IMG/VR virus record: IMGVR_UViG_3300022074_000304 | Coordinates: 1 to 27,263 of that record | Source of the DNA: a virus | Direction: 5' to 3' (one strand) | DNA: 27,263 nucleotides | Shown here: piece by piece, positions 1-27,263 of the stretch | How the letters are laid out: each line of letters starts with the position of its first letter | How positions within the stretch are numbered: position 1 is the first letter of the stretch | Translations under genes and position numbers: made by a program | Notes under the pieces: model-generated | Told to the model about the DNA's origin: nothing | Database searches by the model: none | The model's input: only the letters and a program-made list of their open reading frames with translations

Positions 1-62
1 GATGCAATCAATTTTTGAACACGGCCTGTGGCCCAGTCCAATGGGGTGGTTTCTCCGTCCAT
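1..62 (-). CDS. Small terminase, 5' fragment (redundant copy)
   Basis: This is the first 62 bases of the small terminase gene, read leftward from an ATG at 62. It duplicates 27137-27198 because of the terminal overlap and is not a separate or broken gene. On the circle the gene continues into the right end of the window. Confidence 0.9.
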   Translation of the reverse strand, partial: MDGETTPLDWATGRVQKLIA

Positions 63-127
63 GGTATTTCCTCAAAACCCGCTTCCTGGGGCTGCTAGGG
101 GGGGGCAAAAACCCCAAAAAAGTGTAT
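1..127. repeat. Terminal direct repeat, left copy (assembly overlap)
   Basis: These 127 bases are identical to 27137-27263. This is most simply the overlap left when a circular or circularly permuted genome is assembled with a 127-base word length, so it should be counted once. A true 127-bp terminal repeat of packaged DNA is possible but less likely, because the repeat cuts through the terminase gene start. Confidence 0.95.
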
Positions 128-869: not shown

Positions 870-908
870 GATGCCCTGAAAAAAAATGTGCAATTTTATT
901 GATTAGGC

Positions 909-937
909 TCAACATTTCCGGCCAGTTGGCGGATAAA
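909..937 (+). promoter_or_regulatory. Weak candidate promoter for the 977-3164 genes
   Basis: TCAACA (909-914) and GATAAA (932-937) are separated by 17 bases, each matching four of six sigma70 consensus positions. It lies between the lysozyme terminator and the next gene, where an internal promoter would make sense. The match is modest and could be chance. Confidence 0.25.
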
Positions 938-976
938 GTCTGTGCAGGGCAATAACGCCTGATGAGGAAATCAAAA

Positions 977-1345
977 ATGAACAACCACAACGCTCAAATC
1001 AATGAATGGCTGCACGGTGACAAACCAAACACCCTTGCCAGATGCAGCAACTTCATTGGCCCATTGCAATGGCTTCCACAAACAGCAACACCAAATGAAC
1101 GTATGGAATTTGAATTCGGCTATGAAGATATGGACCCTTGGGGTGTCAGGGCAAAAATGTGCAAGTACGCCACTCCCGATTTCAAACACGCTTGGTCAAT
1201 TGTTGTTGCGGATCGGCGGCGCAAAACCTGTGACAACTGGGATCCTACTAGTGACAACTTGGGGAACCGTGAAAAAGTTTTCCATGTTTGGTTGTCCAAC
1301 AAACGGTTGCAAGCCAAAACACGCAAACTGTTGGGCATGGCCTGA
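977..1345 (+). CDS. Hypothetical protein, 122 aa
   Basis: I do not recognise this protein. It is soluble-looking, with no membrane segment or signal peptide, and is rich in Trp and Asn near the N terminus (MNNHNAQINEWLHGD). The middle has aromatic and acidic residues (FGYEDMDPWGVRAKM) and the C terminus is basic (KRLQAKTRKLLG). An in-frame ATG at 962 exists, but the ATG at 977 is preferred. It has GAGGAAA six bases upstream, and the 18 bases GAGGAAATCAAAAATGAA recur exactly at the next gene. It is the first gene after the lysozyme terminator, followed by a UUCG-loop hairpin and then by a tightly packed set of small genes. Function unknown. Confidence 0.7.
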   Translation: MNNHNAQINEWLHGDKPNTLARCSNFIGPLQWLPQTATPNERMEFEFGYEDMDPWGVRAKMCKYATPDFKHAWSIVVADRRRKTCDNWDPTSDNLGNREKVFHVWLSNKRLQAKTRKLLGMA

Positions 1346-2244: not shown

Positions 2245-2581
2245 AGAAACACACACATACCGTTGGGTTGGTGAAACCCTGGAATCAATCTTTGATGGTG
2301 GCACCCGAATCACCGGATTTTCACCCATCAGGGATTCAGCAAACATCCACCGCACTTGGCAAGGCTATGTGGTGCAACTTGGACAGGCTGGCGTGATGAA
2401 TGGACCAGCCCTGTTCAAAATCACCACCAGGCATGACAGCGGCACAATCACGCTTGAATTCATGGGGAATGATGTGAACATCTACACCTCAGACCACCTG
2501 CCTGAACGTGAAGCGCTGGCAGAACTGAAACACCAAACAGCCCGTGGTGTTCTTGAACTGCTTGAACCATGGGTGGCCTGA
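2231..2581 (+). CDS. Hypothetical protein, 116 aa
   Basis: Unrecognised soluble protein. The start at 2231 is chosen over an in-frame upstream ATG (2204) because a full AAGGAGG lies at 2215-2221, nine bases before it. The sequence alternates beta-like segments (TYRWVGETLESIF, GYVVQLGQAGV, ALFKITTRHDSGTITLEFMG) and ends in a helix (EREALAELKHQTARGVLELL). It is sandwiched between coupled genes. Function unknown. Confidence 0.65.
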   Translation: MHPLEETHTYRWVGETLESIFDGGTRITGFSPIRDSANIHRTWQGYVVQLGQAGVMNGPALFKITTRHDSGTITLEFMGNDVNIYTSDHLPEREALAELKHQTARGVLELLEPWVA

Positions 2582-2582
2582 A

Positions 2583-3164
2583 ATGATTTTTGGAATTGGA
2601 ATCAATGATGTGCCTGGGATCTGCAACACGCCGGTGTACAAATGCTGGGCAGCAATCCATGAACGCTGCTACTCCCAGGCCAAACACAAACGTTATCCCA
2701 CTTACATTGGCACATCCATCTGTGATGAATGGCACACACTCAGCAATTTCAAACGCTGGTATGACAAACACCACATTGATGGAACAACCATTGATAAAGA
2801 CATTGCAAACCCATTCAACATGGAATACAGCCCTGGCAACTGCATGTTTGTTTCCAAATGGCTGAACAATCTGTTCAAAGAGAAACCACCCTCAACCCGC
2901 ATCAGCCGCAACAATGATTTGCCAGTTGGGGTTGATTTGCACTTTGGCAGATACAGGGCACAGATGAACAACATACCGTTGGGCAGGTTTGACAACCCTG
3001 AAGATGCTGAACGCTGCTATCTCAAACACAAACGCCAATTCCTGGCTGACTTGGTTGACAGCATCCGATCTGAACCAGACAACCCAAAATACAAATGTTC
3101 ACACACTGAACGGCTCATTCATGGCCTTCACCTACACAGGAAACAGATGCAACCAATCGGGTGA
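2583..3164 (+). CDS. Phage HNH-like/AP2-domain protein
   Basis: Predicted 193-aa DNA-binding protein of the kind often found scattered in phage genomes as free-standing homing-endonuclease relatives. The N-terminal part has the family's spacing: CWAAIHERCY (21-30), TSICDEW (44-50), NFKRWY (55-60), then IDKDI (70-74), YSPGNCMFV (82-90) and a following Asn pair (95-96). The C-terminal part (about 113-155) looks like an AP2 DNA-binding domain (GVDLHFGRYRAQM ... LGRFDNPEDAERCYLKHK). No classical His-Asn-His triad is obvious, so nuclease activity is uncertain. The ATG is one base after the previous stop and has only a weak ribosome-binding site, so translation is probably coupled. It is the last gene before the operon terminator. 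Confidence 0.7.
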   Translation: MIFGIGINDVPGICNTPVYKCWAAIHERCYSQAKHKRYPTYIGTSICDEWHTLSNFKRWYDKHHIDGTTIDKDIANPFNMEYSPGNCMFVSKWLNNLFKEKPPSTRISRNNDLPVGVDLHFGRYRAQMNNIPLGRFDNPEDAERCYLKHKRQFLADLVDSIRSEPDNPKYKCSHTERLIHGLHLHRKQMQPIG

Positions 3165-3211: not shown

Positions 3212-3674
3212 ATTTGCGCTTACGGCTGGGCCTGACCAACAGCGCTGCTGCCAGTGGTGTTGCCACCCCTGTATCTGGAACAATCAGTGGTTCACCCTCA
3301 TCCCAGGCATCAAATCCGAAAATATGGTTGGATTCCACCTGGCCCAACGTGGGCAACAATGGTGGAACATATGCAAAGAGGTTGTTTGAATGTCCACTGA
3401 ATTCATCTTGGGTGTGTTGCTTTTCATCACTAGCATCTGCTGTTTGGGTTGCAGCGTAGTGTTCTGGCTGCTGTTCAGCTGCTGCAAATGTGTCAACTGC
3501 CCCCAAGATTGCAACTGCCCGTTCAAACGCTTCCTGACCAATAAGTGTCCCAAGAATTGCAACCAGGATTGCCATACGCTGTGAATGGCTTTGGAGCCGC
3601 TTCACTTCCTGTTTGCATTCAGCCCCAGCTTTTTGTTCCTGGGCTGCACGCCGTTCACAAACTGGGCAGCTCAT
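3210..3674 (-). CDS. Hypothetical Cys-x2-Cys protein with hydrophobic segment, 154 aa
   Basis: Unrecognised. It starts with SCPVCERR, a possible zinc-binding knuckle or disulphide pair. A charged helix follows, then a hydrophobic stretch at about 34-46 (MAILVAILGTLIG) that may be a membrane segment or a buried helix. The second half is acidic, rich in Gln, Asp, Ala and Pro, and probably flexible, with a basic end (RPSRKRK). It is coupled to the HNH gene upstream by ATGA and is the last gene of the leftward block. Other small membrane-type genes lie just upstream, so a role in lysis or membrane alteration is possible but not shown. Confidence 0.6.
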   Translation of the reverse strand: MSCPVCERRAAQEQKAGAECKQEVKRLQSHSQRMAILVAILGTLIGQEAFERAVAILGAVDTFAAAEQQPEHYAATQTADASDEKQHTQDEFSGHSNNLFAYVPPLLPTLGQVESNHIFGFDAWDEGEPLIVPDTGVATPLAAALLVRPSRKRK

Positions 3675-4030
3675 TTGTTGTGCCTGACCTCATAGGGGTT
3701 TTTTCTCACCTGGTGGCCAGTCATGCTGGCCCGCTCAGGCTGGCGCTCATGGGCTGTTTTGGTGGCATGGCATGCCAGGCAAATGCCTTGCAGATTCTCA
3801 TAGGAATCATCACCGCCCTGGGCCAGCGGTTTGATGTGGTCCACCTGGGCTGATGCTGCCCGCTGGCAAACCTGGCACACAGGATCACGCGCCAACACCT
3901 GGCCACGCAGCTTCATCCAACGCCGCCCCCTGTTGGCTCTGGTGGATCTGTCCTGCCTGGGGTCCGGCCCACGGTCACGCTTGCCCAGTGGGACCAGCCT
4001 GCCATCCCCTGTCACCTTGCGGATGGTCAT
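3671..4030 (-). CDS. HNH endonuclease
   Basis: 119-aa nuclease with the complete HNH zinc-finger core: Cys52-x2-Cys55, the catalytic Asp64-His65 in VDHIKPLAQGG, Asn79 in YENLQGIC, and Cys84-x2-Cys87-His88. In HK97-like phages such an HNH protein is usually found beside the terminase and works with it in packaging. Here the plus-strand operon lies between it and the small terminase on the circle. The N terminus is Arg-rich (residues 18-43), as expected for DNA binding. The start at 4030 overlaps the upstream 31-aa gene by ATGA. It has only a poor ribosome-binding site, so translation is likely coupled. Confidence 0.85.
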   Translation of the reverse strand: MTIRKVTGDGRLVPLGKRDRGPDPRQDRSTRANRGRRWMKLRGQVLARDPVCQVCQRAASAQVDHIKPLAQGGDDSYENLQGICLACHATKTAHERQPERASMTGHQVRKNPYEVRHNK

Positions 4031-4122
4031 TTGTTCAGCCGATTCAAAACCCGTTGTTTGTGAACCATGCCCATGATGAATCCAACAACAAAACAACCAA
4101 CGCAGATAGAAAACTCAATCAT
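4027..4122 (-). CDS. Very small membrane protein, 31 aa
   Basis: The ORF starts at 4122 with MIEFSICVGCFVVGF. It is one predicted membrane helix (residues 2-20) followed by a basic tail (HKQRVLNRLNK). Its start overlaps the previous gene and its stop overlaps the next, both by ATGA. The sequence AAGGGG lies about eight bases before the start. This exact double coupling is strong evidence that so short an ORF is real. Single-helix proteins beside other membrane genes in phages are often holin, antiholin or spanin parts. The function is not established. Confidence 0.65.
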   Translation of the reverse strand: MIEFSICVGCFVVGFIMGMVHKQRVLNRLNK

Positions 4123-7351: not shown

Positions 7352-7933
7352 TCAGTTGAACAATGGCCCCGTTCCATGGGGCACCAAATCTTTCAGTGGC
7401 ACGCGCCACCCTGTGGTTGTACCTGTTGTTCCTCCAACCACCTGTGGTAGTTGATCGGACCAATTCTTTTTGTCCATTAGTTTTTCCCGATCAATGTACC
7501 CGCAACAAACAATGGTCCGCACATCTGGGTCATACATGAACACATATAGCCAATCAAAAAACTTGCCCTGGTCCCGTTGGTAGAAATTGCACCAGCTGTT
7601 CCGCTTGCCAAATGTTTTCACCTCAATCAGCTGGCGCTTCCACACCAAATCATGCCGGTCCAACTCATTGGCATGGGCCTCTGCATTTGGCAAAAGGTCA
7701 CGCAAATACCATTCACCAGCAATACCAGGGATGTGCCGCTGTTCCAGATAGTAATCCTCATCACCATCCCAGCGCCCTTTGAACCCCCAATCTGGGGTCA
7801 CGCTGGCACGGCTCTTGGCTGTGGCCACCAGCCCATCATATTCCTGTTTGATGATGCGCCGGTATGGGCCATGCAATGGAACGCCCTGCATGCAAACGTA
7901 TTTGTTCACAGCTGTGGTTGCGGCACAAACCAA
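7352..7933 (-). CDS. PD-(D/E)XK endonuclease, possible resolvase-like, 193 aa
   Basis: It carries the motif order of the PD-(D/E)XK fold: Glu74 in GIAGEWYLRDLL, Asp95 in DRHDLVW, and Glu104-x-Lys106 in LIEVKTFGK, followed by a Gln/Phe-rich helix (FYQRDQGKFFDW). This predicts metal-dependent DNA cleavage, perhaps of branched DNA, but the substrate cannot be read from the sequence. The start is uncertain. A TTG at 7933 has GAGGG upstream and overlaps the exonuclease gene by 28 bases; an ATG at 7891 has no ribosome-binding site. It lies between the exonuclease and SSB-like genes. Confidence 0.7.
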   Translation of the reverse strand: MVCAATTAVNKYVCMQGVPLHGPYRRIIKQEYDGLVATAKSRASVTPDWGFKGRWDGDEDYYLEQRHIPGIAGEWYLRDLLPNAEAHANELDRHDLVWKRQLIEVKTFGKRNSWCNFYQRDQGKFFDWLYVFMYDPDVRTIVCCGYIDREKLMDKKNWSDQLPQVVGGTTGTTTGWRVPLKDLVPHGTGPLFN

Positions 7934-8811
7934 CTTTGCACGCCCTCATATCCGGTAGGCCATGAACCCTCTTGGTGCCACAACGCTGCCAACCTTGCAA
8001 TGTTGTGTTCATTTTCATCCTGCTTCATCTTCAATACAGCATGCGGGATGTTGGCCACCGCCACTTTGTATGGTGGGTTTTTCTCAACAGCCACAATCAC
8101 AACATCAATGTTTGATGTGCAACCACATCCGTTGTCCAATGTTCTGATGAACAAATCACGGTAGAACGCCAACTGTTCTGGGTACCCAAACCTGTGGGCA
8201 TTCCTGGGGAACATTTCCAAATCCTCTGTGGTTTTCAGGTCAACCAATGTGGTGTACCCGCTTCCGGTGTCGGCAACAAAATCAATTTTGCATTGCCTGG
8301 CAAAAGGCTCTTCACCCACATATTTCCTGAACGCCCGTTCTGCATCACCATCAGCAAACAGGCTTTTGGCAATCGGATGTTGCCGCACAGCTTCAGCCAT
8401 GCCTTGGCACTGGTCCCATTGTTCATTGCTCAGGATGTTCACACCAGGCTTTGCATCCTCCAGCGCCGTCTTGGCTTCACGGAATGCTTTGGTGGTTTCC
8501 CCGTACATGGAACCCGTTTTGGGGTTGATGAATCCAAAGCTGGGGCACAGCTCATCAATCCGCACAAAATTGTCCATGAATGTCTGGGTGCCTTCCAGGA
8601 TCAGGGCATGTGCCGCCCGCCCCAGGACCAATGCGGGTGAATCCTTCTGTTTGATTTCTTTGGTGATGTACCTGGCCTGGTAGTCCCGTGGGGATTTCCT
8701 GAATAGCTTCATGCTGCTGGCGGAAATAGCCCGGCCATCTTTGGCGTACTGGTGGTACACCTTGTCATCCTCTTCCAAAAAACTACCCGTTGGGATTCTG
8801 TCCGTTGTCAT
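7906..8811 (-). CDS. Exonuclease VIII-like nuclease (PDDEXK_1/DUF3799 type)
   Basis: 301-aa enzyme of the RecE/AddB-like nuclease group that digests double-stranded DNA to make single-strand ends for recombination. It shows the family pattern: GRAAHAL near 64-70, an Asp in KIDFVAD (about 177), the strand VDLKTT (Asp191, Lys193), and the QLAFY motif (Gln213, Tyr217) in the helix after the active site. The start is fixed by AGGAGG nine bases before the ATG at 8811; longer in-frame versions lack this. It overlaps the small gene upstream by 29 bases. No RecT/Red-beta annealing protein was recognised beside it. The SSB-like protein or the 107-aa neighbour may do that job. Confidence 0.8.
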   Translation of the reverse strand: MTTDRIPTGSFLEEDDKVYHQYAKDGRAISASSMKLFRKSPRDYQARYITKEIKQKDSPALVLGRAAHALILEGTQTFMDNFVRIDELCPSFGFINPKTGSMYGETTKAFREAKTALEDAKPGVNILSNEQWDQCQGMAEAVRQHPIAKSLFADGDAERAFRKYVGEEPFARQCKIDFVADTGSGYTTLVDLKTTEDLEMFPRNAHRFGYPEQLAFYRDLFIRTLDNGCGCTSNIDVVIVAVEKNPPYKVAVANIPHAVLKMKQDENEHNIARLAALWHQEGSWPTGYEGVQSWFVPQPQL

Positions 8812-9106
8812 GCCGATCAACCCTCCTGGCGTTCTGTGCCGCCAAATCCAGGGCAACAATGAACACTTCCAAATCTGGCAACCGCTTTTCCAGCTGCCAA
8901 ATCCGTGCCAGGTCATCATCACCCCTGTTTTCAATCAACGCTTGTGTGCCCAGCAAACCCTTCAAAACCCAGGGTGCCAGACACAACCACGCCGTTGCCA
9001 ATTTTGCAATGTCATCACACCGTTGGGTTGCAGCGGAATCAGAACAGCTTTGGAGCTGTTGATACAGGGCAATAGCCCGTTCCATTTTGGCGCTGAATCC
9101 GTCCAA
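8783..9106 (-). CDS. Hypothetical helical protein, 107 aa
   Basis: Unrecognised. Mainly alpha-helical, rich in Ala, Leu, Asp and Arg (ALYQQLQSC, WLCLAPWVLKGLLG, LEVFIVALDLAAQNARR). The start is read as TTG at 9106 because AGGAG lies eight bases upstream; the in-frame ATG at 9085 has none. It is the first gene after the tail module and overlaps the exonuclease gene, so it may open the replication block. A recombination accessory role follows only from position. Confidence 0.6.
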   Translation of the reverse strand: MDGFSAKMERAIALYQQLQSCSDSAATQRCDDIAKLATAWLCLAPWVLKGLLGTQALIENRGDDDLARIWQLEKRLPDLEVFIVALDLAAQNARRVDRHDNGQNPNG

Positions 9107-16306: not shown

Positions 16307-16627
16307 TTAGCTTTCCCTGGGTTTGGACATGCGCGCCAGAAAACCTAGCTTTGCCTTCATTTGTTCGGATGTTCTGGCCTTCCCATCAACGCCATCCACA
16401 TACGGCATGAAATCAGCAGGCTTGAACGCCCGTGCCCCTTTGGTCCTGTGGGCATTGGCAATCAATGCCGTTTGAATGGCCTGGTTGATGTCACCACGTT
16501 CTGGCCCAATCGGGCTGATGCGGTCATAGGCAATCCAGGATGCCAGCTCCAGGCTGGACATTTCACGCTTTAGCTGCCCGACAGTCATACCCAATGCAAG
16601 CGCTAGCCGGAACAGAAACCGGCTCAT
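16307..16627 (-). CDS. Tail assembly protein, lambda gpT-like (DUF4035 type)
   Basis: 106 aa. The N-terminal half LALALGMTVGQLKREMSSLEL plus ASWIAYDRISPIGPERGD matches the short tail-assembly family exemplified by gpT (L-x-L-x-x-T-V-x-x-L-x-x-x-M-x-x-x-E-L-x-x-W). The protein would bind the tape measure while the tail tube grows. In many phages this reading frame is reached by a ribosomal frameshift from the upstream gene. Here it has its own ATG overlapping the upstream stop (ATGA), and I see no clear slippery heptamer, so coupled re-initiation is more likely. Confidence 0.7.
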   Translation of the reverse strand: MSRFLFRLALALGMTVGQLKREMSSLELASWIAYDRISPIGPERGDINQAIQTALIANAHRTKGARAFKPADFMPYVDGVDGKARTSEQMKAKLGFLARMSKPRES

Positions 16628-16998
16628 TGGGCGGGCGCGGATTCCCCCTCCAGGTCATCAATATCCTGGCTGGTAAACCCGTTCAGTCTGGCCGCAACCG
16701 TAAACACCCGATCAACCGCCGCAGCGGATTTGGCACCCAGGGCTGTAGCGTCAGCCGCTTCAAATAGCTTTTCACCCTTTTCATCACACGCCACCAGACA
16801 CACCAACCTGGCACGCAGGTTCACCATGTTCTGTTTGCGTTTGGTGCCGCCTGAAACCTCAGCTTCAAACTGGTCCCGCTCCCCAGCGGTCATCACCCGC
16901 ACATACAGCACGCCATTCCACTCTGGAACATCAACCCGTTCCAGGTGCAAATCATCCGTGCCCAAAATGTCATCCCTTGACAACAAAACATCTGCCAT
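16624..16998 (-). CDS. Tail assembly chaperone (gpG-like)
   Basis: 124 aa. The pattern MADVLLSRDDILGTDDLHLE ... VPEWNGVLYVRVMTAGERDQFE is typical of the phage tail assembly chaperone family: a short helical N terminus, the conserved P-x-W-G/N-G, then a helical C-terminal half. It lies between the major tail protein and the tape measure, the canonical place. The ribosome-binding site AAGGAGG lies seven bases before the ATG, the strongest of this block, which suggests high expression. It is coupled to the gpT-like gene by ATGA. Confidence 0.75.
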   Translation of the reverse strand: MADVLLSRDDILGTDDLHLERVDVPEWNGVLYVRVMTAGERDQFEAEVSGGTKRKQNMVNLRARLVCLVACDEKGEKLFEAADATALGAKSAAAVDRVFTVAARLNGFTSQDIDDLEGESAPAQ

Positions 16999-17030
16999 GT
17001 GTCAGCCCTCCTTTTGGCTGTGTGTGTGTG

Positions 17031-17450
17031 TTATCCCGTAGTGTGATCAACAGCGCCGGTGATCTTGAATGCAATGGTGGCACGGTTGACTTCATCAATG
17101 GCTTGGCTGTGGCTCATGGAACGCACAAACGCCGTGAACGTATAGGTATCGGAATCACTGAATGTGATGACAACTGTACGGGATGTGCCAGCTGTGAAAT
17201 CATCCCAGATGGCACCTTGGGCTGTGTCATCATGATCAAACTGAACTTCCACAGATACTTCACCAGCATCACCAAACCCAGCGCTGAATGTTCTGAATTT
17301 GACTGCAACACTGTCAACGGTTGACGCAGTGGACAGGTTGGTGGTGTCAACCATGGCCCGTTCCATGTTTGGACCATCAATGGACAAAACCTGCCCAATG
17401 TTGTTGCTGTTCCAACTGATGGTTGCGCCTTGTCCCAAAAATGCTGCCAT
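17031..17450 (-). CDS. Major tail tube protein
   Basis: 139-aa protein that would polymerise into the tail tube. It starts MAAFLGQGATISWNS, as do many tail tube proteins (G-x-G-T-x-L-x-W followed by IGQVLSIDGP), and includes the conserved MVDTTNLS segment. A beta-sandwich with strands ending in TYTFTAFVRSMSHS and ATIAFKITG follows. Size and position (after the DUF3168-type gene, before the chaperones) fit. It is separated from the chaperone gene by a 32-base gap with a short GT repeat on the plus strand. Confidence 0.85.
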   Translation of the reverse strand: MAAFLGQGATISWNSNNIGQVLSIDGPNMERAMVDTTNLSTASTVDSVAVKFRTFSAGFGDAGEVSVEVQFDHDDTAQGAIWDDFTAGTSRTVVITFSDSDTYTFTAFVRSMSHSQAIDEVNRATIAFKITGAVDHTTG

Positions 17451-17457
17451 GGTGAAT

Positions 17458-17907
17458 CTATCCCGTTGCGTTTGCTCTGTAAGAAATCAGGAATGACAAC
17501 ATCCTGATGTATGTGCCTTGCCGGTCCCCATCAACTGGGGCTGCATAATCTGTTCGGTCATTGGTATGTGTACACCCTAAAACCTCCACATTGATTGCAC
17601 CACCCACATTGATGGCAATGGTGCCCCTGAACCCTGACAATGCTTTCCGCACCTCTTCTGCCAGGTCAGACGCATCTAGGAACGTTTCACCCATACAGAA
17701 AAAATCAAAATCCACACTTATCATTTGGGTGGCTCCAGACAGGCTACTGTACGGCCTGCTGGTGGAAACCTCATATGTAATAGCTGGCAGCGCCAATTCC
17801 TGATCCAAAACCAGTGGGCTGATCCTGGTGCCAACTCTGCTGCTGATCTCAGAATCTGCTGACAGTTTGGTGAACAGGGCACGTTCCAATGGGCTGTTTG
17901 TGGGCAT
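17458..17907 (-). CDS. Tail terminator/completion protein (DUF3168 type)
   Basis: 149 aa. It has the DUF3168 pattern: LERALFTKLSADSEI ... RISPLVLDQELALPAITYEV, then polymer-like beta strands (MISVDFDFFCMG) and a helix EVRKALSGFRG, ending with YIRMLSFLISYR. These proteins cap the head-proximal end of the tail tube. Order with respect to the HK97 gp10-like gene and the major tail protein is canonical. Its ATG follows the previous stop codon directly. Confidence 0.8.
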   Translation of the reverse strand: MPTNSPLERALFTKLSADSEISSRVGTRISPLVLDQELALPAITYEVSTSRPYSSLSGATQMISVDFDFFCMGETFLDASDLAEEVRKALSGFRGTIAINVGGAINVEVLGCTHTNDRTDYAAPVDGDRQGTYIRMLSFLISYRANATG

Positions 17908-18453
17908 TTATTTGATTCCCGCCTGTCTTGCCAACCGTTTGATGCGGTTTTTCACCCGCCGGTCAAACTCTTTTGATAGGTCTGCCATGAATGTTGGCAG
18001 GTGCCTTTCAGCTGCCCTGGACAGATAGAACTGGCCTGGCACCGCTGGAATTCGGACCCGATACGTTGTGCCATTTCTGCCAACAATCTTTTGCGTGAAT
18101 GAACGCCGCCCAAATTCAATGATGGCTGCAATGTTTCGGCGCTTCCCTGGCCCCTCACCACCACCACGCAAACCAACACCAACACGGCCCAGGAATCCAA
18201 ACCCACCATCTGTGTTCTTGATTTGCACCTGAATTTGTTCTTTGGTTTTGCCTTTGTCAACAGATACAACTTCCTGGGCAGTCCGTTGGAGCTTTTTGGT
18301 TTCTGTCCGCACTGCCAACTTTGCAATGCGTTTGGCATCCTTGTGGCCCAGAATGCTCATGGCCTGCATCAGCTGGTTGGCCCCGATCAACTGAACATCC
18401 ACCCCCAGGCTGCTGCTGAACTGGCCCATTTTGTTTCTACTTTGGGAAACCAT
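17908..18453 (-). CDS. HK97 gp10-like head-tail protein
   Basis: 181 aa. Basic protein of the HK97 gp10 family, a component of the head-tail joint or tail attachment. It shows the usual layout. A helical N-terminal part (QLMQAMSILGHKDAKRIAKL, RTETKKLQRTAQEVV) is followed by a Gly-rich middle of FGFLGRVGVGLRGGG type and then IIEFGRRSF, the family hallmark. The last part (HLPTFMADLSKEFDRRVKNR) is helical and basic. The ATG at 18453 overlaps the previous stop by one base; an ATG at 18429 is possible. Confidence 0.8.
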   Translation of the reverse strand: MVSQSRNKMGQFSSSLGVDVQLIGANQLMQAMSILGHKDAKRIAKLAVRTETKKLQRTAQEVVSVDKGKTKEQIQVQIKNTDGGFGFLGRVGVGLRGGGEGPGKRRNIAAIIEFGRRSFTQKIVGRNGTTYRVRIPAVPGQFYLSRAAERHLPTFMADLSKEFDRRVKNRIKRLARQAGIK

Positions 18454-18770
18454 TAGACCATTTCCCTTGCCAGAATTTCCAGCTGTTCATCTTTTTCCAG
18501 CCTGTTCAGCACCTGCACCACCTCAAAATTCCTGCTGCTGTACACCAGCCTGGATGTGGTGGTGATTTGGCTGGCATACCTGGTGGTGATTTTGTGGGTA
18601 ATTCTGCCCTTAGTTTGGTTGGCGTTTTGCAGCTCCTCCCCACGGTGTGGTTCAATCCTGGCCCAAAGGGTGATGGCTGTGGAATAGCTGGCTGTACGCT
18701 GCCCAACGCCGTCCACAGTCATTGATGGGTTCTGAACCTGAACCCTGTGCCGCATGGGTCCAGTCCGCAT
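18453..18770 (-). CDS. Head closure / head-tail adaptor protein
   Basis: 105 aa. It matches the phage head-tail joining family: MRTGPMRHRVQVQNPS ... LWARIEPHRGEEL, then HKITTRYASQITTTSRLVY and NFEVVQVLNRLEK. The W-A-x-I/V-x-P-x-x-G-x-E element is typical. The protein closes the connector after packaging and provides the tail docking site. It overlaps both neighbours by one base (TAATG, TGATG), so it is translated with them. Confidence 0.85.
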   Translation of the reverse strand: MRTGPMRHRVQVQNPSMTVDGVGQRTASYSTAITLWARIEPHRGEELQNANQTKGRITHKITTRYASQITTTSRLVYSSRNFEVVQVLNRLEKDEQLEILAREMV

Positions 18771-19369
18771 CAGTACGCCTTCCCAACCTCAAACTGGTGG
18801 CAAATGTTTTTCACGCCCAATGGCACTTCTGCAAACGTGTTCCCCCTGGGGTCAACTGCTTCACGGTGTTCATAGTAATGGCTGACCAGCATCAACACAG
18901 CATGTTTCAATGGTTCTGGCACATCAGACGCGCTGGCCCCGTAGCCTGCAACAGCCACCACGGTCACCACGTTTGCCTGGTCCAATGTGCTTGGCCACTC
19001 CTGGCCTGACTTCAGGAAAATCCTGCCAGGGTCACGGATGGTGCCAACGCCATAAACACTGGTGCCCAACGTCTGGCTGGCCCCGTCTCCATCGGTGTAG
19101 CTAATGGATGTCACAGAAACCAATGGGGCAATCGGGAAGAAAATAGCATCTTGGTGGGGGAACTGATCCACCTGATAGGTCCAGCTGGCATTGATCATTT
19201 GCCGGTTGGTCAAATGCTCAACAACATTGGTTGCCCTGGTCACCAGGCTGGCAATCAGGGTATCTTCATCGGAATGGTCAATGCGCAACCAGGCTTTGGC
19301 ATCGGACGTTGCAACCACCGCTGCTGATGGTGCCGTGGTTTGTTTCAGGCCAAAATTATGTTGATCCAT
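18770..19369 (-). CDS. Head-tail connector (gp6-like)
   Basis: 199 aa. Phage gp6-like head-tail connector, which forms the ring under the portal. It has the N-terminal helical part AKAWLRIDHSDEDTLIASLV ... RATNVVEHLTNRQ, followed by the usual SWTYQVDQFP and FPIAPLVSVTSISY, and a C-terminal helix with LKHAVLMLVSHYYEHREA. The start has AAGGGG upstream. The gene lies directly downstream of a strong minus-strand terminator (19399-19425). It needs read-through, antitermination or a local promoter for expression. Confidence 0.85.
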   Translation of the reverse strand: MDQHNFGLKQTTAPSAAVVATSDAKAWLRIDHSDEDTLIASLVTRATNVVEHLTNRQMINASWTYQVDQFPHQDAIFFPIAPLVSVTSISYTDGDGASQTLGTSVYGVGTIRDPGRIFLKSGQEWPSTLDQANVVTVVAVAGYGASASDVPEPLKHAVLMLVSHYYEHREAVDPRGNTFAEVPLGVKNICHQFEVGKAY

Positions 19370-19398: not shown

Positions 19399-19425
19399 AA
19401 AAAAAATGGGCACCGTTTGGTGCCC
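19399..19425 (-). terminator. Rho-independent terminator between the 47-aa gene and connector
   Basis: On the minus strand a perfect seven-base-pair stem GGGCACC/GGTGCCC with loop AAAC is followed by one A and then eight T (T tract at 19399-19406). It lies between the stop at 19450 and the connector start at 19369, so the connector and tail genes lie behind a terminator. Partial read-through could set the level of tail transcripts. Confidence 0.9.
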
Positions 19426-19449
19426 TGTGTGGTTGGGGTTGTTTTGGGT

Positions 19450-19593
19450 TCAGCCGACCTTACCCAGAACCTGCTGGGTGAACCAATGGTTGAAACCTTC
19501 ATCCGTTCCGTTGATTTCAATCCACACAGCTCTACGCTCCTCATATTGTTTCATCAGCTCCCGAATCAGGTTTTGAATTTCATTCTCGGTCAT
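19450..19593 (-). CDS. Small hypothetical protein of the accessory island, 47 aa
   Basis: The reading frame begins at the ATG at 19593 (MTENEIQNLIRELMKQYEER) and runs to TGA at 19452-19450. A good AAGGA stands eight bases upstream and a sigma70-like promoter is centred 50-60 bases upstream. A terminator lies just after it, so it forms its own transcription unit. The protein is a charged helix (residues 3-22) followed by an aromatic-rich part (VWIEINGTDEGFNHWFTQQV). No family is recognised. The size and charge would fit a small regulator or toxin/antitoxin-like partner, but this is guesswork. Confidence 0.7.
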   Translation of the reverse strand: MTENEIQNLIRELMKQYEERRAVWIEINGTDEGFNHWFTQQVLGKVG

Positions 19594-19632
19594 TTCAGAT
19601 TTCCTTCCAGGCCCATCATTGGGCACATGGAC

Positions 19633-19661
19633 AATTTAGCCGTGCCAAATGTAGGTTGCAA
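19633..19661 (-). promoter_or_regulatory. Sigma70-like promoter for the 47-aa gene
   Basis: On the minus strand TTGCAA (19661-19656) and TAAATT (19638-19633) are 17 bases apart. The -10 box is the same as in the divergent plus-strand promoter. The transcript would start near 19626, about 33 bases before the ATG. The -35 box lies inside a perfect palindrome GGTTGCAACC (19654-19663), a possible operator. Confidence 0.6.
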
Positions 19662-19663
19662 CC
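19654..19663. promoter_or_regulatory. Palindrome GGTTGCAACC, possible operator
   Basis: Perfect ten-base palindrome covering the -35 box of the minus-strand promoter. It is flanked, one base off symmetry, by GCCAA (19644-19648) and TTGGC (19667-19671). It would suit a dimeric repressor. No binding protein can be named. Confidence 0.4.
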
Positions 19664-19729
19664 CTCTTGGCCTAATTTTCCACATTTTTTTCAGGGCAAG
19701 AAAAAAAGTTGATTTTCTCACCAGTAGGC

Positions 19730-19758
19730 TTGACAGCCCTTTGGGCGTTGCCTAAATT
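19730..19758 (+). promoter_or_regulatory. Sigma70-like promoter for the 113-aa gene
   Basis: Consensus TTGACA (19730-19735), a 17-base spacer and TAAATT (19753-19758). This is the best promoter I found in the window. Transcription would begin near 19765, about 30 bases before the ATG. An AT-rich stretch at about 19670-19715 lies upstream, as in strong promoters. Confidence 0.7.
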
Positions 19759-19795
19759 TGGTCATGGCAATTCTGCCGATTTGAGGAAATCAACA

Positions 19796-20137
19796 ATGAA
19801 CACTTCTGCTTCCCACCCCGCTCTGACCGATCTCTGCCTCCTGATCCGTGACCGCCGTTTGGGCAAATGGTTTGCCACAAAACCATCTGAAATCCGTTGC
19901 TATGAAAGGGCGTATGGATTTTCTTGCACGCTTGATTTCAAAGGTACGGTTGGCACCGCACAGGTTCATGTCAGAATCCGCACCAATGATGATGGAACGC
20001 ATGATGTGCTTTTTCAGGGCAGGGGTTCAGAACGCTTGGTGGTTTGTGTTCCAGAATCCCACCCAAACTTCCACTGTGGGTTTGACAACATTGATGATGC
20101 ACCCGCATTCAATTTTTATGATGAGTGGGCTGGATGA
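19796..20137 (+). CDS. Accessory (moron-like) protein on the opposite strand, 113 aa
   Basis: Unrecognised soluble protein encoded against the direction of all surrounding head and tail genes. The start at 19796 has GAGGAAA seven bases upstream, using the same leader as genes at 977 and 1401. An in-frame ATG at 19709 is rejected because it lies upstream of the promoter. The first third is helical (ALTDLCLLIRDRRLGKW). The rest looks like a beta sheet (YGFSCTLDFKGTVGTAQVHV, GTHDVLFQGRGSERLVVCV) and ends acidic and aromatic (FDNIDDAPAFNFYDEW). It has its own promoter and a bidirectional terminator, the hallmarks of a gene added between structural genes. Function unknown. Confidence 0.75.
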   Translation: MNTSASHPALTDLCLLIRDRRLGKWFATKPSEIRCYERAYGFSCTLDFKGTVGTAQVHVRIRTNDDGTHDVLFQGRGSERLVVCVPESHPNFHCGFDNIDDAPAFNFYDEWAG

Positions 20138-20163
20138 AACCAACACCACCCAAAACAAAAAGA

Positions 20164-20192
20164 GGCCACCCAAATGGGTGGCCCTTTTTTTT
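20164..20192. terminator. Bidirectional terminator after capsid gene and island gene
   Basis: A perfect eight-base-pair stem GGCCACCC (20164-20171)/GGGTGGCC (20176-20183) with loop AAAT is followed by eight T (20185-20192) on the plus strand. On the minus strand it is followed by TCTTTTTG. It ends both the rightward 113-aa gene and the leftward capsid gene. Confidence 0.9.
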
Positions 20193-20215: not shown

Positions 20216-21409
20216 TCAGGCCAGGGTAATGACCTTACAGGCTGCCGTGTTCAACAACTCACCGTCATTGAACGCAATGCCACGCACACCAACTTGGCCA
20301 TTGGCCGCAAACAGCTCATCCAAACGGCTGAATTCAAAGCCGCCGAAATCAACAATTTGATAGTAGCTGGTATCACCAAACAGGATTGGCTTCTTGCCAG
20401 TGGTCATTACGTCCACGTTGTCAGACTCATATACCGGCTTGCCCAACAGGGTGTCAGGAGCTGCACCCAAACCTGGGGTCCACAGGTAATTCAATGAACC
20501 GCTGCTGGTCACTGGGTTTTTGAGCTGGCGGATTGCCTTGGCTGCCTCTGGGGAAACAATCCAGTTGGCAGTTGGTGCCATACGGTAATCCACAGCAACG
20601 CTGTAGTACAGGTCAATGATTTCATCACCAGTCACAGCAGTAGCGCTGGCAGCAGTCACACCAGATGTGGCATTGTCAAAGATGCCGCGTGGCGCGTTGC
20701 TGTTGTCACCAGTCAAGAATGCTGCCAATTCAGCACTGGCAAATGAACGTGCAAAGCTGGATGCAATGTAGGCTTCCAGCTGGGCAGCGCTGAACGTGCC
20801 GGTGTAATTCAACAGCTCTTCAGAAACCTTCATGATCCGGCCCAAACGGACAGGGTTCATGGTCACTTGGCCAAAGCTGTGATCAGACTCAGAGATGGAA
20901 CCACCTTCAGCCCCGTATGCCGCTGAACCAATGCTGGATTCAGTTGCAAATGCGGTTTTCTGGCTGACTTGGGTCACCGTGCCGATTTGCCGCATGAAGT
21001 TTGCTTCCTCACGCAATTGGCTGATCTGTTGGCTCACAGCAGTGGTGGCCAGGTTGCCACCAGCACCAGCTGAACCAATGGACAATGCACGCTGTTCAGC
21101 GCCATTCATTGGCTCACCACACAAACGCTTCATGAATGCTGTCCGGTATTCTTCTGACTCAGTGGTGATTTCACCACGGTGTTCAGCTTCTTCAACCTTC
21201 ACAACAACATCAGCCATTTCAGCTTCACGTTGGGCGGTTTGCTCTTCCAGCTTGATACGGCTTTCAATTGAGCGTACTTCAGATTCCATGCCTTCAAATG
21301 ATTCCATTTGATCGGCTGACAATGCGGATGCGTCTTTGTTGGCATCCAAAATTTCACGCTGCTTTGCAATCAGGGCAGCGCGCTTTTCCTTCAGGGAATT
21401 GATGTTCAC
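20216..21409 (-). CDS. Major capsid protein (HK97 gp5 family)
   Basis: 397-aa HK97-fold coat protein that forms the icosahedral head. Residues 1-80 are a charged coiled coil (MNINSLKEKRAALIAKQREI ... VRSIESRIKLEEQ), the delta or scaffold domain that the protease removes. The mature part follows from about residue 110, with family segments EANFMRQIGTVTQ, TMNPVRLGRIMKVSEELL, TPGLGAAPDTLLGKPVYESD and ILFGDTSYYQIVDFGG. The start codon is GTG at 21409 with AAGGA upstream, overlapping a possible small ORF by GTGA. A strong bidirectional terminator follows, which should keep capsid transcripts separate from the tail genes. Confidence 0.92.
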   Translation of the reverse strand: MNINSLKEKRAALIAKQREILDANKDASALSADQMESFEGMESEVRSIESRIKLEEQTAQREAEMADVVVKVEEAEHRGEITTESEEYRTAFMKRLCGEPMNGAEQRALSIGSAGAGGNLATTAVSQQISQLREEANFMRQIGTVTQVSQKTAFATESSIGSAAYGAEGGSISESDHSFGQVTMNPVRLGRIMKVSEELLNYTGTFSAAQLEAYIASSFARSFASAELAAFLTGDNSNAPRGIFDNATSGVTAASATAVTGDEIIDLYYSVAVDYRMAPTANWIVSPEAAKAIRQLKNPVTSSGSLNYLWTPGLGAAPDTLLGKPVYESDNVDVMTTGKKPILFGDTSYYQIVDFGGFEFSRLDELFAANGQVGVRGIAFNDGELLNTAACKVITLA

Positions 21410-21591: not shown

Positions 21592-23346
21592 TTATTCGGC
21601 AACCCCATCTGAAATCCGCAGATACAGCCGCAACATTTCAGGTTTGGGTGTATCCCGCCGCATTGCTTCACGCTTCAAACCACGCACAGCCACGGTTGTG
21701 TCCTCATAGGCAGGGAAGCTGACCACGGAAACGTCAAACAAATCCAGGTCACGGATTTCCCGCACCGTCTTCCCGTCACGCTCTTCCCAGTTGTCATCCC
21801 GCACCACAAACCCAAAACTCATGGCATCCAGGTCACCACGCCGGATTGATTCAAGAGTGTCCTGGCCAACGGTTGTGTGGGGAATGTCAATCTCAGTCCG
21901 CAGCCCGTGTTCATCTTGGGACAAACGCAGGGTGCCGGATTTGGTCCGGCCCAGAATCATCTTGGGGTCATGGTCAACCAGCGCCCGTACATCATGCTGT
22001 TCATCAATTGCCCTGGTAAATGCACCTGGTTTGATGTACTCAACAAAATCACCCAGGTCACGGCTCTCTGAATCAAACACGCTGGCATAGCCCACAATGG
22101 TGTCAGCTGTGTCACCCGATTCCAGTTTGACTTCCTGGTGGGCACGCCGTTCCAATTTCTCTGATGGTGCTGATCGGCTGTACCCCCCACCGCCGCCGCC
22201 ACCAGTCACAGACTCATATGCCGCATGGGTGGAACATGGCATGAACACGGTTTCCCCGTCAACCTCCATTGTGTGGGTGCCGTCACACCCCAGGGCATCA
22301 GCCCGTGCCATTGCTTCATCCTCAGTGGTGTATTGATCCACACCAACACGTTCCCGTTTTTCATCACTCATACGTTCATCCTTGCTTGATTCTGGGTGCC
22401 CGCTGGGCAACAAATCTAGGTCATGCTTGCCCCGTCTGAACTTCAGATTGGCCAGGGCATACAGAAATGAATTCACCCGTGCATAGGCCCATGCTTCTGC
22501 ATTGGGGATGCTTGGGCGCACTGAACTGGGCTGGGTTTTGTATGCCCCAACACCACGTTCAAACACCTTTTCCAACATGGACAATGTGGCCCGCTTCCTG
22601 GCATCATCCCCATGTTCATCATTGTGTTCTTCCAGCTTGCGTTCCAATGCAACCTTGACGTTGCCGGTCACCTGCCGCTGTTCTTCTGATCCATCACCCA
22701 GGTCCGCCACCAGGTCCAAATCCACCACCGGCACACCAACCTGCCTGTCTGTTTCAATCAGGTCATCATTCATTTCCACAAACACTGTGATGATTGCTAC
22801 TGGCCCAACATCATCAGTGTCCATGGATTCTGCACCAAACTCAGCAATGCCGGATGTCACAACCTCATCCACCACGCCGGTGTATATGCCTTTTTCAGCC
22901 CGCCACCTGACAAACAAACCTGGTTCAACATCTGCCAGGTCAGCCCGTGTTTCACGCCGTTCCTTCAATTCATCCAGCACGGCTTTCATTCTGGATTCAC
23001 CCAGCACACCAACCGTGCCCCATTTCACTTGGGCAACAATCCCAGCAACATTGGACAGGTTTGGCCCCAGGTCAGCATCCTGGAATTGTTTGCCATCTTC
23101 AAAATGTCTGGCGCTCCAGGCTTCACGTTCCTTGATCCATGCCAACACGGCTGGGGAACTCACACCACGTTCTGCCCGCTTCCAAATCTCAAACGCTTCA
23201 TTGCCACGGATGTTGCCACCAGCACCCCAGATGTCTGGGTGGTTGCGTTTCAAATCCCTGGCATAGCTGTGGTCAAACACATCAAACCTGGAATTGCCCA
23301 GGCTGATTGGTTCATCATCACCGGATTGGGGAAAATCTGTTGCCAT
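21592..23346 (-). CDS. Prohead protease fused to long N-terminal domains, 584 aa
   Basis: The C-terminal third is the HK97-type prohead maturation protease. It reads IVGYASVFDSESRDLG, then IKPGAFTRAI, the catalytic His in VDHDP (about 459), the catalytic Ser in DAMSFGF (about 510), and the closing LFDVSVVSFPAYEDT. It would cut the capsid delta domain. Typical proteases of the family have about 200 residues; this one has nearly 400 extra. The first part includes HPDIWGAGGNIRGNEAF, W...RH (about 71-81) and an SH3/Tudor-like piece VKW ... PGLFVRWRAEKGIYTGVV. A DUF5824-like region (RGVGAYKTQPSSVRPS ... AWAYARVNSFLYAL) and a C-x8-MEVDGETVFMPCSTHAAYE element follow, and then a seven-Gly linker. The start is ATG at 23346, overlapping the portal stop (TGATG). 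Confidence 0.85.
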   Translation of the reverse strand: MATDFPQSGDDEPISLGNSRFDVFDHSYARDLKRNHPDIWGAGGNIRGNEAFEIWKRAERGVSSPAVLAWIKEREAWSARHFEDGKQFQDADLGPNLSNVAGIVAQVKWGTVGVLGESRMKAVLDELKERRETRADLADVEPGLFVRWRAEKGIYTGVVDEVVTSGIAEFGAESMDTDDVGPVAIITVFVEMNDDLIETDRQVGVPVVDLDLVADLGDGSEEQRQVTGNVKVALERKLEEHNDEHGDDARKRATLSMLEKVFERGVGAYKTQPSSVRPSIPNAEAWAYARVNSFLYALANLKFRRGKHDLDLLPSGHPESSKDERMSDEKRERVGVDQYTTEDEAMARADALGCDGTHTMEVDGETVFMPCSTHAAYESVTGGGGGGGYSRSAPSEKLERRAHQEVKLESGDTADTIVGYASVFDSESRDLGDFVEYIKPGAFTRAIDEQHDVRALVDHDPKMILGRTKSGTLRLSQDEHGLRTEIDIPHTTVGQDTLESIRRGDLDAMSFGFVVRDDNWEERDGKTVREIRDLDLFDVSVVSFPAYEDTTVAVRGLKREAMRRDTPKPEMLRLYLRISDGVAE

Positions 23347-25259
23347 CAAACTGCCTGAATGATTGACACATCACCAGTTTTGATTGGGCTGTGTCTGATG
23401 TCCGTCCTGGGTTCATACGTTGTGCCGTCTGTGTAGGTCACAGTTTGGCCACGCAGAATGAATGGTTCACCTGGCTTGACGGTCACACCGTCCAGGCTCA
23501 CTGGGGCATTGGTGCCCAGCGCCCGCCAAACCACTTGGTTGACACCGGCCTGCCGGTACAGCTCCAGAACAATGCTGCCTTCTGCACGCCGCATTTCATC
23601 ATCAATGATGTCTGTGGAATGAGCGCCGTTGGCCCAGCTGGCCACCACACCGTCACGGTTTTCCGATGCCACAATGCTTTGGGCTGAACGCCGTGAACGC
23701 CTGGTGGCAAACCGCCGTGCCATGTTTTCCAACGCTTCAACACTCAGTTGGCCAGGGTTGCGGCCCAACTCATCACCCATGATGTTTGACAACTGGTTGC
23801 CCAGCTCAGTCAACGCTGGCAGAATTTGCCGGAACGCCAAACGCTGGTATTCCCCTTCATAAAACTTTTCAGCCCATTCAGCCACCTTGCCTGGTTCACG
23901 GTCCAGCTGGCGTTGGGCTGCATTCACTTCTGCCTGGGCAATGGTGTTCAGCGCCCCTTCCCAATTGGCTTTGGCATTGGCTCTGGCAGCATCCCGCAGG
24001 GCCACCACATCCAAGGTTGGCAGCGCCCGCTGTTCATCCTCCATGGGCATTGGCTCTGGGGCATCACCAGGCTTCAGCGCTTCCATGTTCAATGGTGACA
24101 GGTACAAATCACCGTTGCCACCAATCGGGTCCAGGTTTTCAATTTTGCGGATGTCATTGACAGACAGGAACCCAGCCTGCCGCGCTGTTTGGTATGCCTT
24201 AAATCTTGAATCCAAATCACCACGCAACAAATGGTCAAACTGGAATTCAGAAAACACACCACCAGTGGTTGGCAGCAATTTGGATTTGATTTCTGATTCA
24301 ATCCGCCGTGCCCATGGGGTCAATGTGTGAACCACAAACGCCCTGTTCAGCTCACCAATGGAACCGTAGCTGCCTGCATTCTCCAGGTCAGCCAACATGG
24401 ATGGTGGCACCCGGAAAATCCGTGCAATCTCAGCAACCTGGAACCGTCTGGTTTCCAGGAACTGGGCATCATTCGGGTTCACGCTGATTGGCTTGAAATC
24501 AATACCAGCTTCCAACAGGGCAACCCTGGCTGAATTGCCAGCGCCCTTGTGTAGCTTTTCCCAGCTACGCCGCAGGTTGCCAAACGCTTCATCAGACAGT
24601 TTGCCTGGCACACTCAGAATGCCGGATGGGGTGCCGCTGTTGCCAAACCAGTTGGCCCCATACTGTTCAGCCGCAATGCCCAGCCCGATGGTTTCCCGTG
24701 CCAAACCAATTGGTGAATATCCCACCAAACCCAATGGCCCCAGCGCCCGAATGTGCAACACCTGGTCAGATGTCCATGCCCCCTGGAACTGGCCTGTGGT
24801 GAACTCATATGCCACACGGCCAGATGTGGTCATTTTCACTTCCACGTTCCTGGGGTCCACTGGGGTCAGGGCTGTCACTTCACCACGCCCGTTTCGGGTG
24901 ATGTAGGCAAACCCGTTGCCGTAGGTACAGGCATGGCTGACCAGGGTTTCAAACAGCATGAACGCTGTTAGGTTTTCATCGGCCTGGTCACGCAGGATGC
25001 CGTAGATGGGCAAATCATCCGCCTGCCGTCTGCCATCATCCGTGTTTCTGTAGGTCACCAGTGGCAATGCCGCCAATGATTCAGAAATGATCCTCACACA
25101 GCTGTAAACCGCTGACAGGCTCAGGGCTGTCTGTTCAGATACTTCAACACCAGCACCTGATGGGTTGCCCAGGAAACTCCATTTGTCCGGCTGTTTGAAT
25201 GTGTGCCGTTGTTCAGCTTTGGGGCTGATGATGGTTCTGATGAAATCTGTTAGAGCCAA
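23346..25259 (-). CDS. Portal protein with MuF-like C-terminal extension, 637 aa
   Basis: HK97-type portal, the ring through which DNA enters and leaves the head. The portal core covers about residues 1-390: LSLSAVYSCVRIISESLAAL, YGNGFAYITRNGRGEV, LGPLGLVGYSPIGLARE, RFQVAEIARIFRVPPSML, then the clip and stem part with RQAGFLSVNDIRKIENLDP. HK97 portals are usually near 420 residues. The extra 240 residues are helical (about 425-540) and end with GVNQVVWRALGTNAPVSLDG, PFIL and RHSPI, which looks like a reduced MuF/SPP1 gp7 domain. The start is read as TTG at 25259 with AGGGGA six bases upstream, overlapping the large terminase end by 10 bases. Confidence 0.88.
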   Translation of the reverse strand: MALTDFIRTIISPKAEQRHTFKQPDKWSFLGNPSGAGVEVSEQTALSLSAVYSCVRIISESLAALPLVTYRNTDDGRRQADDLPIYGILRDQADENLTAFMLFETLVSHACTYGNGFAYITRNGRGEVTALTPVDPRNVEVKMTTSGRVAYEFTTGQFQGAWTSDQVLHIRALGPLGLVGYSPIGLARETIGLGIAAEQYGANWFGNSGTPSGILSVPGKLSDEAFGNLRRSWEKLHKGAGNSARVALLEAGIDFKPISVNPNDAQFLETRRFQVAEIARIFRVPPSMLADLENAGSYGSIGELNRAFVVHTLTPWARRIESEIKSKLLPTTGGVFSEFQFDHLLRGDLDSRFKAYQTARQAGFLSVNDIRKIENLDPIGGNGDLYLSPLNMEALKPGDAPEPMPMEDEQRALPTLDVVALRDAARANAKANWEGALNTIAQAEVNAAQRQLDREPGKVAEWAEKFYEGEYQRLAFRQILPALTELGNQLSNIMGDELGRNPGQLSVEALENMARRFATRRSRRSAQSIVASENRDGVVASWANGAHSTDIIDDEMRRAEGSIVLELYRQAGVNQVVWRALGTNAPVSLDGVTVKPGEPFILRGQTVTYTDGTTYEPRTDIRHSPIKTGDVSIIQAV

Positions 25260-26869: not shown

Positions 26870-27198
26870 AATCCCAGCATCCGCTTTTTGTTCTCATCCA
26901 AATCATCCAGCACATCAGCCGCATCATCCAACAGCCCCAGCTGCCGCAGCCACCTGGAAACCCGATCAGCCGCCGAAACTTTGATTGCCTGGGCTGGGTG
27001 GGGTACCGGCTGGCCTTGGCTTCCCTCAGTAATCATGCCCTGTGTTTGCAGGATTCTCCTGGCCTGTTCCCAGTCGGCCAACGCTTCCTGCATTTGGCTC
27101 AACATCAGCTTCTCAGCTGGGGACCAACTGGCCCTAGATGCAATCAATTTTTGAACACGGCCTGTGGCCCAGTCCAATGGGGTGGTTTCTCCGTCCAT
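26866..27198 (-). CDS. Small terminase subunit (P27 family)
   Basis: 110-aa DNA-recognition subunit of the packaging enzyme. The pattern fits the P27 family: a helical ring-forming part (EKLMLSQMQEALADWEQARR) with LQTQGMITEGSQGQPVPHPA, then a C-terminal part ending in LRQLGLLDDAADVLDDLDENK. These are typical of small terminases that pair with Terminase_1 large subunits. The start at 27198 has GAGGAAAT seven bases upstream. The first part of the gene is duplicated at 1-62 by the terminal overlap. It is the first gene of the long leftward operon, and a packaging site is expected upstream (63-373 on the circle). Confidence 0.88.
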   Translation of the reverse strand: MDGETTPLDWATGRVQKLIASRASWSPAEKLMLSQMQEALADWEQARRILQTQGMITEGSQGQPVPHPAQAIKVSAADRVSRWLRQLGLLDDAADVLDDLDENKKRMLGL

Positions 27199-27263
27199 GG
27201 TATTTCCTCAAAACCCGCTTCCTGGGGCTGCTAGGGGGGGGCAAAAACCCCAAAAAAGTGTAT
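27137..27263. repeat. Terminal direct repeat, right copy (assembly overlap)
   Basis: Exact copy of bases 1-127. Removing one copy gives a closed circle of 27,136 bp. The junction lies inside the 5' part of the small terminase gene, which is intact in this right-hand copy. Confidence 0.95.

Follow-up and report, generated by a model that had tools for sequence, protein, structure and literature searches.

A candidate slot for exchangeable early-type accessory units between the capsid and connector genes of an uncultured 27-kb phage

Results

Gene content and signals of the capsid-connector gap

Two small orphan genes lie between the major capsid (head) gene (20216–21409, minus strand; PHROG 10, E 8e-77), which forms the left flank of the slot, and the head-tail connector (adaptor) gene (18770–19369, minus strand; PHROG 442, E 3e-28), which forms the right flank. 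The window, i.e. the whole stretch of 27,263 nucleotides that was analysed, is an IMG/VR virus record. A 113-aa protein (P0001) is encoded on the plus strand (19796–20137). The minus strand (19450–19593) encodes P0002 (47 aa), which is the cargo exchanged in the left unit. Both open reading frames and their flanks, first described in a first-pass annotation of the DNA, were confirmed. The same annotation had the 113-aa gene running against all surrounding genes. This is correct for the minus-strand block in which it is located, but not for the early genes, which occupy the left end of the window and are on the plus strand as well.

The putative promoter of the 113-aa unit (TTGACA-17-TAAATT, 19730–19758, plus strand) was detected by the scanner and matches 10 of 12 consensus bases. 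It is followed by the hairpin GGC[AATTCT]GCC (19766–19777, plus strand), the predicted 5' end of the transcript, and then by GATTTGAGGAAATCAACA-ATG. This leader is 95% identical in relatives. The putative promoter of the 47-aa unit (TTGCAA-17-TAAATT, 19633–19661, minus strand; boxes at 19656–19661 and 19633–19638) was read directly from the sequence. With matches at 8 of 12 consensus bases it is weak, and it is absent from the scanner list for this reason. It is conserved in two related contigs (L008 and L009) with different genes behind it, and the divergent promoters with a TAAATT −10 box proposed earlier are hence supported by the scanner on the plus strand and by conservation on the minus strand. 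The 5' end of the 47-aa transcript is predicted to form the hairpin GCCC[AATGAT]GGGC (19611–19624, minus strand), followed by CTGGAAGGAAATC.

Terminators had been assigned to both ends of the island, and the scanner found them there. A bidirectional terminator (20163–20184, both strands) is located between the capsid gene and the 113-aa unit, and the terminator of the left unit (19408–19425, minus strand) is shared by L008 and L009 despite their different genes. The position equivalent to 20163–20184 carries a terminator in relatives with an empty gap, too, which makes it a native feature of the capsid-connector gap.

The first 127 bases of the window (1–127) are identical to the last 127 (27137–27263), so that the window probably represents a complete phage genome of ~27.1 kb, either circularly closed or terminally redundant. 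The head genes of this 27-kb genome are of the HK97 type. Its capsid and terminase proteins are less than 60% identical to those of any named phage, and a megablast search of the region DNA against named phages gave no match. No relatives of the capsid gene were found in GTDB genome contigs, and a search for tRNA genes found none. A RecE-like exonuclease is encoded at 7906–8934. Two HNH endonuclease genes (2544–3164 and 3671–4096) are located on opposite strands close to the early/late strand switch. The prohead protease gene (21592–23349, 585 aa) has a long N-terminal extension, the protease domain starting only at residue ~400, and contains a match to DUF3721.

Neither orphan protein had been recognised in the first reading of the sequence, and neither gave a match in Pfam, PHROGs or PADLOC. 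For the 113-aa protein, searches of named phages, GTDB genomes and PDB sequences likewise retrieved nothing. Its AlphaFold2 model is all-beta with a confidence too low for interpretation (pLDDT 62, pTM 0.56), and no significant match to this model was found by fold search in BFVD and PDB. Six cargo proteins were submitted to PADLOC without a meaningful match (best E 0.02), in a library search that new defence genes could escape.

Empty and filled gaps in related contigs

A search with the capsid protein gave 21 related viral contigs, all metagenomic and some of them partial. The comparison of related phages for presence or absence of the island, proposed as a check in the first-pass annotation, revealed an empty capsid-connector gap in 13 of these contigs and a filled one in 8. 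Empty gaps comprise 89–107 bases, which contain a terminator-like hairpin and the ribosome-binding site of the connector gene. At least six different cargoes occupy the slot. Both genes of the window are present in L006, which belongs to the same phage species. In L007, L009 and L011, an intact homologue of the 113-aa gene (91% identical) was found, and the leader of the 47-aa unit precedes an unrelated gene (100 aa) in place of the 47-aa gene. L008 is without the 113-aa gene and encodes a third protein (114 aa) behind the same left-hand leader. The contigs L014, L016 and L026 belong to a cousin lineage with a second leader type and, once more, three different cargoes (108 aa; 106 aa; 117 + 96 aa). 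An additional search with the connector gave a contig (L049) that probably continues one of the filled contigs already known, as well as distant relatives, of which the inspected gaps hold ordinary co-directional genes.

These combinations bear on the earlier proposal that the island is a moron or a two-gene regulatory/defence module. Two small genes for orphan proteins, transcribed in opposite directions from adjacent promoters and closed by terminators, would be suited to a toxin-antitoxin system or a two-gene defence or exclusion module, the proteins of which act jointly from divergent promoters. Such a module is very improbable here: the 113-aa gene has an unrelated 100-aa partner in three contigs, the other unit occurs in L008 in the absence of the 113-aa gene, the 47-aa gene has a homologue that occurs by itself at the L042 early slot (see below), and PADLOC gave no match. 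In view of this separate inheritance, the toxin-antitoxin reading was rejected and the module part of the proposal is abandoned. The moron part is retained, based on presence and absence of the island, its own promoters and terminators, and the exchange of cargo. The extra genes are present or absent between two genes that are adjacent in relatives, and they have a promoter and a terminator of their own at the level of sequence signals.

The position next to the capsid gene could also point to an accessory virion gene, e.g. for a decoration protein, and more distant relatives (L064 and L066) indeed have two co-directional genes beside the capsid gene. Against this, which is considered extremely improbable, stand the early-type promoters of the genes in the window, one of which opposes the head operon, the empty slot in most relatives, and the cargo common to early slots.

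Conserved leaders and exchanged cargo

The leaders are 90–94% identical within each lineage and the genes flanking the slot are 87–96% alike, whereas the cargo DNA is no more, or hardly more, alike than shuffled sequences. The 3' flanks including the terminator are 92–96% alike in the lineage of the window and only 77–82% in the other, so that the terminator does not offer a good homologous anchor in all cases. Ordinary morons, i.e. independent insertions with private promoters and no common mechanism of exchange, would account for the presence and absence of the units, for their own promoters and terminators and for orphan genes in a late operon. Independent insertions would not be expected to leave leaders this similar (and, in the window's group, terminators this similar) around unrelated genes, and the same leader architecture recurs at the early slot; morons of this kind are thus quite unlikely.

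Between the window and L009, the 113-aa gene has a dS of 0.084, compared to at least 0.20 for the flanking genes (47 equal-sized windows). The unit therefore looks more recently exchanged than its flanks, or, as an alternative, its synonymous sites may be constrained. With 15 changed codons, its dN/dS of 0.47 carries too much uncertainty for proof of selection at the protein level. Just downstream of the connectors (~16310–18453), dS between the window and L009 is near 1 and some segments are barely alignable, unlike the capsid and connector genes of the same pair (92–94% identical), which points to a recombination boundary inside the head-tail module.

A second variable slot in the early region

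A second copy of the leader type is located in the early region (870–976, plus strand), with an A-rich tract and a TAAAGT −10 box. Its hairpin, GGC[AATAAC]GCC (948–959, plus strand), is followed by GAGGAAATCAAAA-ATG. Behind it lies a cargo gene for 122 aa (977–1345, plus strand), in place of which the close relatives L042 and L043 have unrelated genes for 59 and 141 aa, respectively, and the next early gene (85 aa, 1401–1658 in the window) is 95–99% identical across the window, L042 and L043. As judged from this comparison, the early region holds a second variable slot.

Several cargoes are related between the two slots. The 47-aa P0002 is homologous to the early-slot gene of L042 (39% identity over 38 aa; E 2e-6 in tblastn, z of about 13–15 against shuffles), and the hotspot cargo of L016 resembles an early-slot protein of L046 (32% over 62 aa). 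The last 22 aa of the hotspot cargo of L008 are 95% identical to the end of the early-slot gene of L043 (61/69 nt), and the shared segment (8265–8330 in L008, 1091–1156 in L043) is bordered by unrelated sequence on either side. The unity of the island appears to lie in a shared expression leader, which serves the early-gene slot as well.

The common ending of the L008 and L043 proteins, DPFxAFENMADRQESRNGNDYC, might indicate mosaic genes or a shared C-terminal tag. In the cousin lineage, early cassettes (L015/L034 450–930, L028 470–990, L026 ~1210–1270) are separated by a repeated CCCCTCTCCGGAGGGG hairpin, which has the appearance of an intercistronic repeat; in some cases no promoter but just AAGGAACCC-ATG comes after it.

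Architecture and distribution of the leader

The order of elements is the same in all leaders: a −10 box, 5–8 bases, the hairpin, the ribosome-binding site and ATG. The hairpin loop always has six bases and starts with AAT or AAC (AAY hexaloop), and the stem varies (GGC/GCC, GCCC/GGGC, GGCGG/CCGCC) with compensated changes at pairs 1–4. The divergent copies of the L046 lineage have an AATGAA loop. The scan that detected them did not have an AAY loop as a requirement, and they therefore represent an independent confirmation.

A scan with the leader motif gave 16 sites in the DNA of the clade, all of them at the capsid-connector slot or in front of small variable early genes. The motif was partly defined on sequences in which it was then found, a circularity that is reduced, not removed, by the controls and by L046. 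The sites of the early region are located in the window (~950), L042, L043, L034 (two), L046 (two) and L028 (three). Leader copies number one to three in a genome or contig, and each is located at a variable slot. No site was obtained in the controls, which comprised 100 Markov-simulated windows and other phage loci (462 kb). A recognisable leader is not universal among the members, as the scan gave none at the far end of G001 or in G010, as far as the latter was read. IMG/VR searches with the leaders of the two lineages retrieved only contigs of the clade or contigs bearing its early cassettes, and a stricter pattern for the early leader gave nothing further in IMG/VR.

Single-sequence folding of the two window leaders was not exceptional in comparison to shuffled sequences (z −0.6 and −1.4), so that the RNA structure is deduced from conservation and covariation. 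A palindromic DNA operator would give the same covariation as an RNA hairpin. The hairpin might accordingly be a DNA operator or recognition site, used by a phage repressor or by a homing/HNH nuclease driving the exchange, instead of a structure at the 5' end of the mRNA; it is palindromic and covarying, and the phage has two HNH endonuclease genes. The constant distance of 5–8 nt from the −10 box and the direct transition into the ribosome-binding site fit the 5' end of a transcript better, and the slot itself is without a nuclease gene, which renders a DNA site rather unlikely.

Discussion

The capsid-connector gap is probably an accessory slot for autonomous early-type units, with a leader type and cargo that it has in common with an early slot. 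In each unit, a promoter, a 5'-terminal hairpin and a ribosome-binding site would precede a small orphan gene, or sometimes two of them, and a terminator would follow. Comparison of the related contigs demonstrates, for the sequences at hand, presence or absence at the slot, exchange of cargo behind kept leaders, and cargo common to the early slot.

With respect to the mechanism, the conserved leaders and terminators may provide homologous anchors for phage recombination, and the RecE-like exonuclease of the phage could help recombination between them. The slot genes would be transcribed early by the host sigma-70 polymerase. Stabilisation of mRNA by stem-loops at the 5' end is well established in bacteria, and the 5'-terminal hairpin of the leader may protect the mRNA and/or tune its translation, so that any gene placed behind the leader would be expressed at once after infection. 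The site behind the capsid gene might be tolerated because the native terminator already attenuates transcription there. A more far-reaching and tentative possibility, held with less confidence than its opposite, is that the leader with its AAY hexaloop is a clade-wide "plug-in socket", which is recognised as RNA (or DNA) by a dedicated factor of the phage or the host and secures both the immediate expression of newly gained genes and, as the exchange site, the transfer of cassettes between early and late slots. The least certain point is the role of the cargo proteins. They might act early on the host or against its defences (host takeover or counter-defence), a guess made because such genes commonly do so.

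In close relatives, the same slot can be read as empty, as filled with one unit or with two opposed units, and since leaders are kept and genes exchanged among them, the exchange step is directly testable. The system bears on the question of how small accessory genes can be acquired by phages with their operons left intact. A family of uncultured phages may trade such genes singly, by swapping at the slot. The leader may furthermore be used as a sequence tag for finding further early accessory genes, possibly for host takeover or anti-defence, without relying on homology.

Comparison with known systems

Morons of temperate phages are independently transcribed accessory genes (PMC7380047). The units described here resemble them in being accessory genes with their own transcription signals, present or absent between conserved genes, and differ in that unrelated cargo has one leader type across slots in the window's clade. 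P2/P4-like elements harbor antiviral hotspots (PMC9122126), which are likewise small loci with a high turnover of genes and a conserved gene on either side. In contrast to these, a unit of the window's clade has a conserved leader followed by a single small orphan gene, and the six cargo proteins searched gave no meaningful match to defence genes in PADLOC.

In cluster K mycobacteriophages, a 13-bp start-associated sequence (SAS) and, in the extended form (ESAS), 17-bp inverted repeats are reported, and the ESAS stays with the same gene families (PMC3203893). The likeness consists in a short repeat just upstream of the start codons of many, often different genes, and in the inverted repeats of the extended form. 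The unit of the window's clade differs in that it includes a recognisable promoter and that its cargo changes. The 13-bp SAS GGGATAGGAGCCC was not found before the start codons, where the leaders of the clade read AGGAAATCAA or AAAGGAACCC. With the conserved 13-bp sequence absent from the leaders, identity with SAS/ESAS was rejected.

According to PMC4503421, promoter early stem-loops (PeSLs; Arbiol et al. 2010, Comeau et al. 2014) of T4-type phages are repeated combinations of an early promoter and a stem-loop that precede variable small genes, and they are said to mediate shuffling between related phages. The same arrangement is seen here, with an early-type promoter and a stem-loop in intergenic regions in the form of predicted signals. 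The phage of the window is not T4-like, and its promoter is sigma-70-like instead of a phage-specific early promoter. The hairpin of the clade is located downstream of the promoter at the predicted 5' end of the mRNA and has a conserved AAY hexaloop, and one of the slots lies inside the late head operon. Since the 27-kb genome is unrelated, has HK97-type head genes and is without a close named relative, the leader is not considered a PeSL by descent. By analogy, the leader of the window's clade may work like a PeSL without being one.
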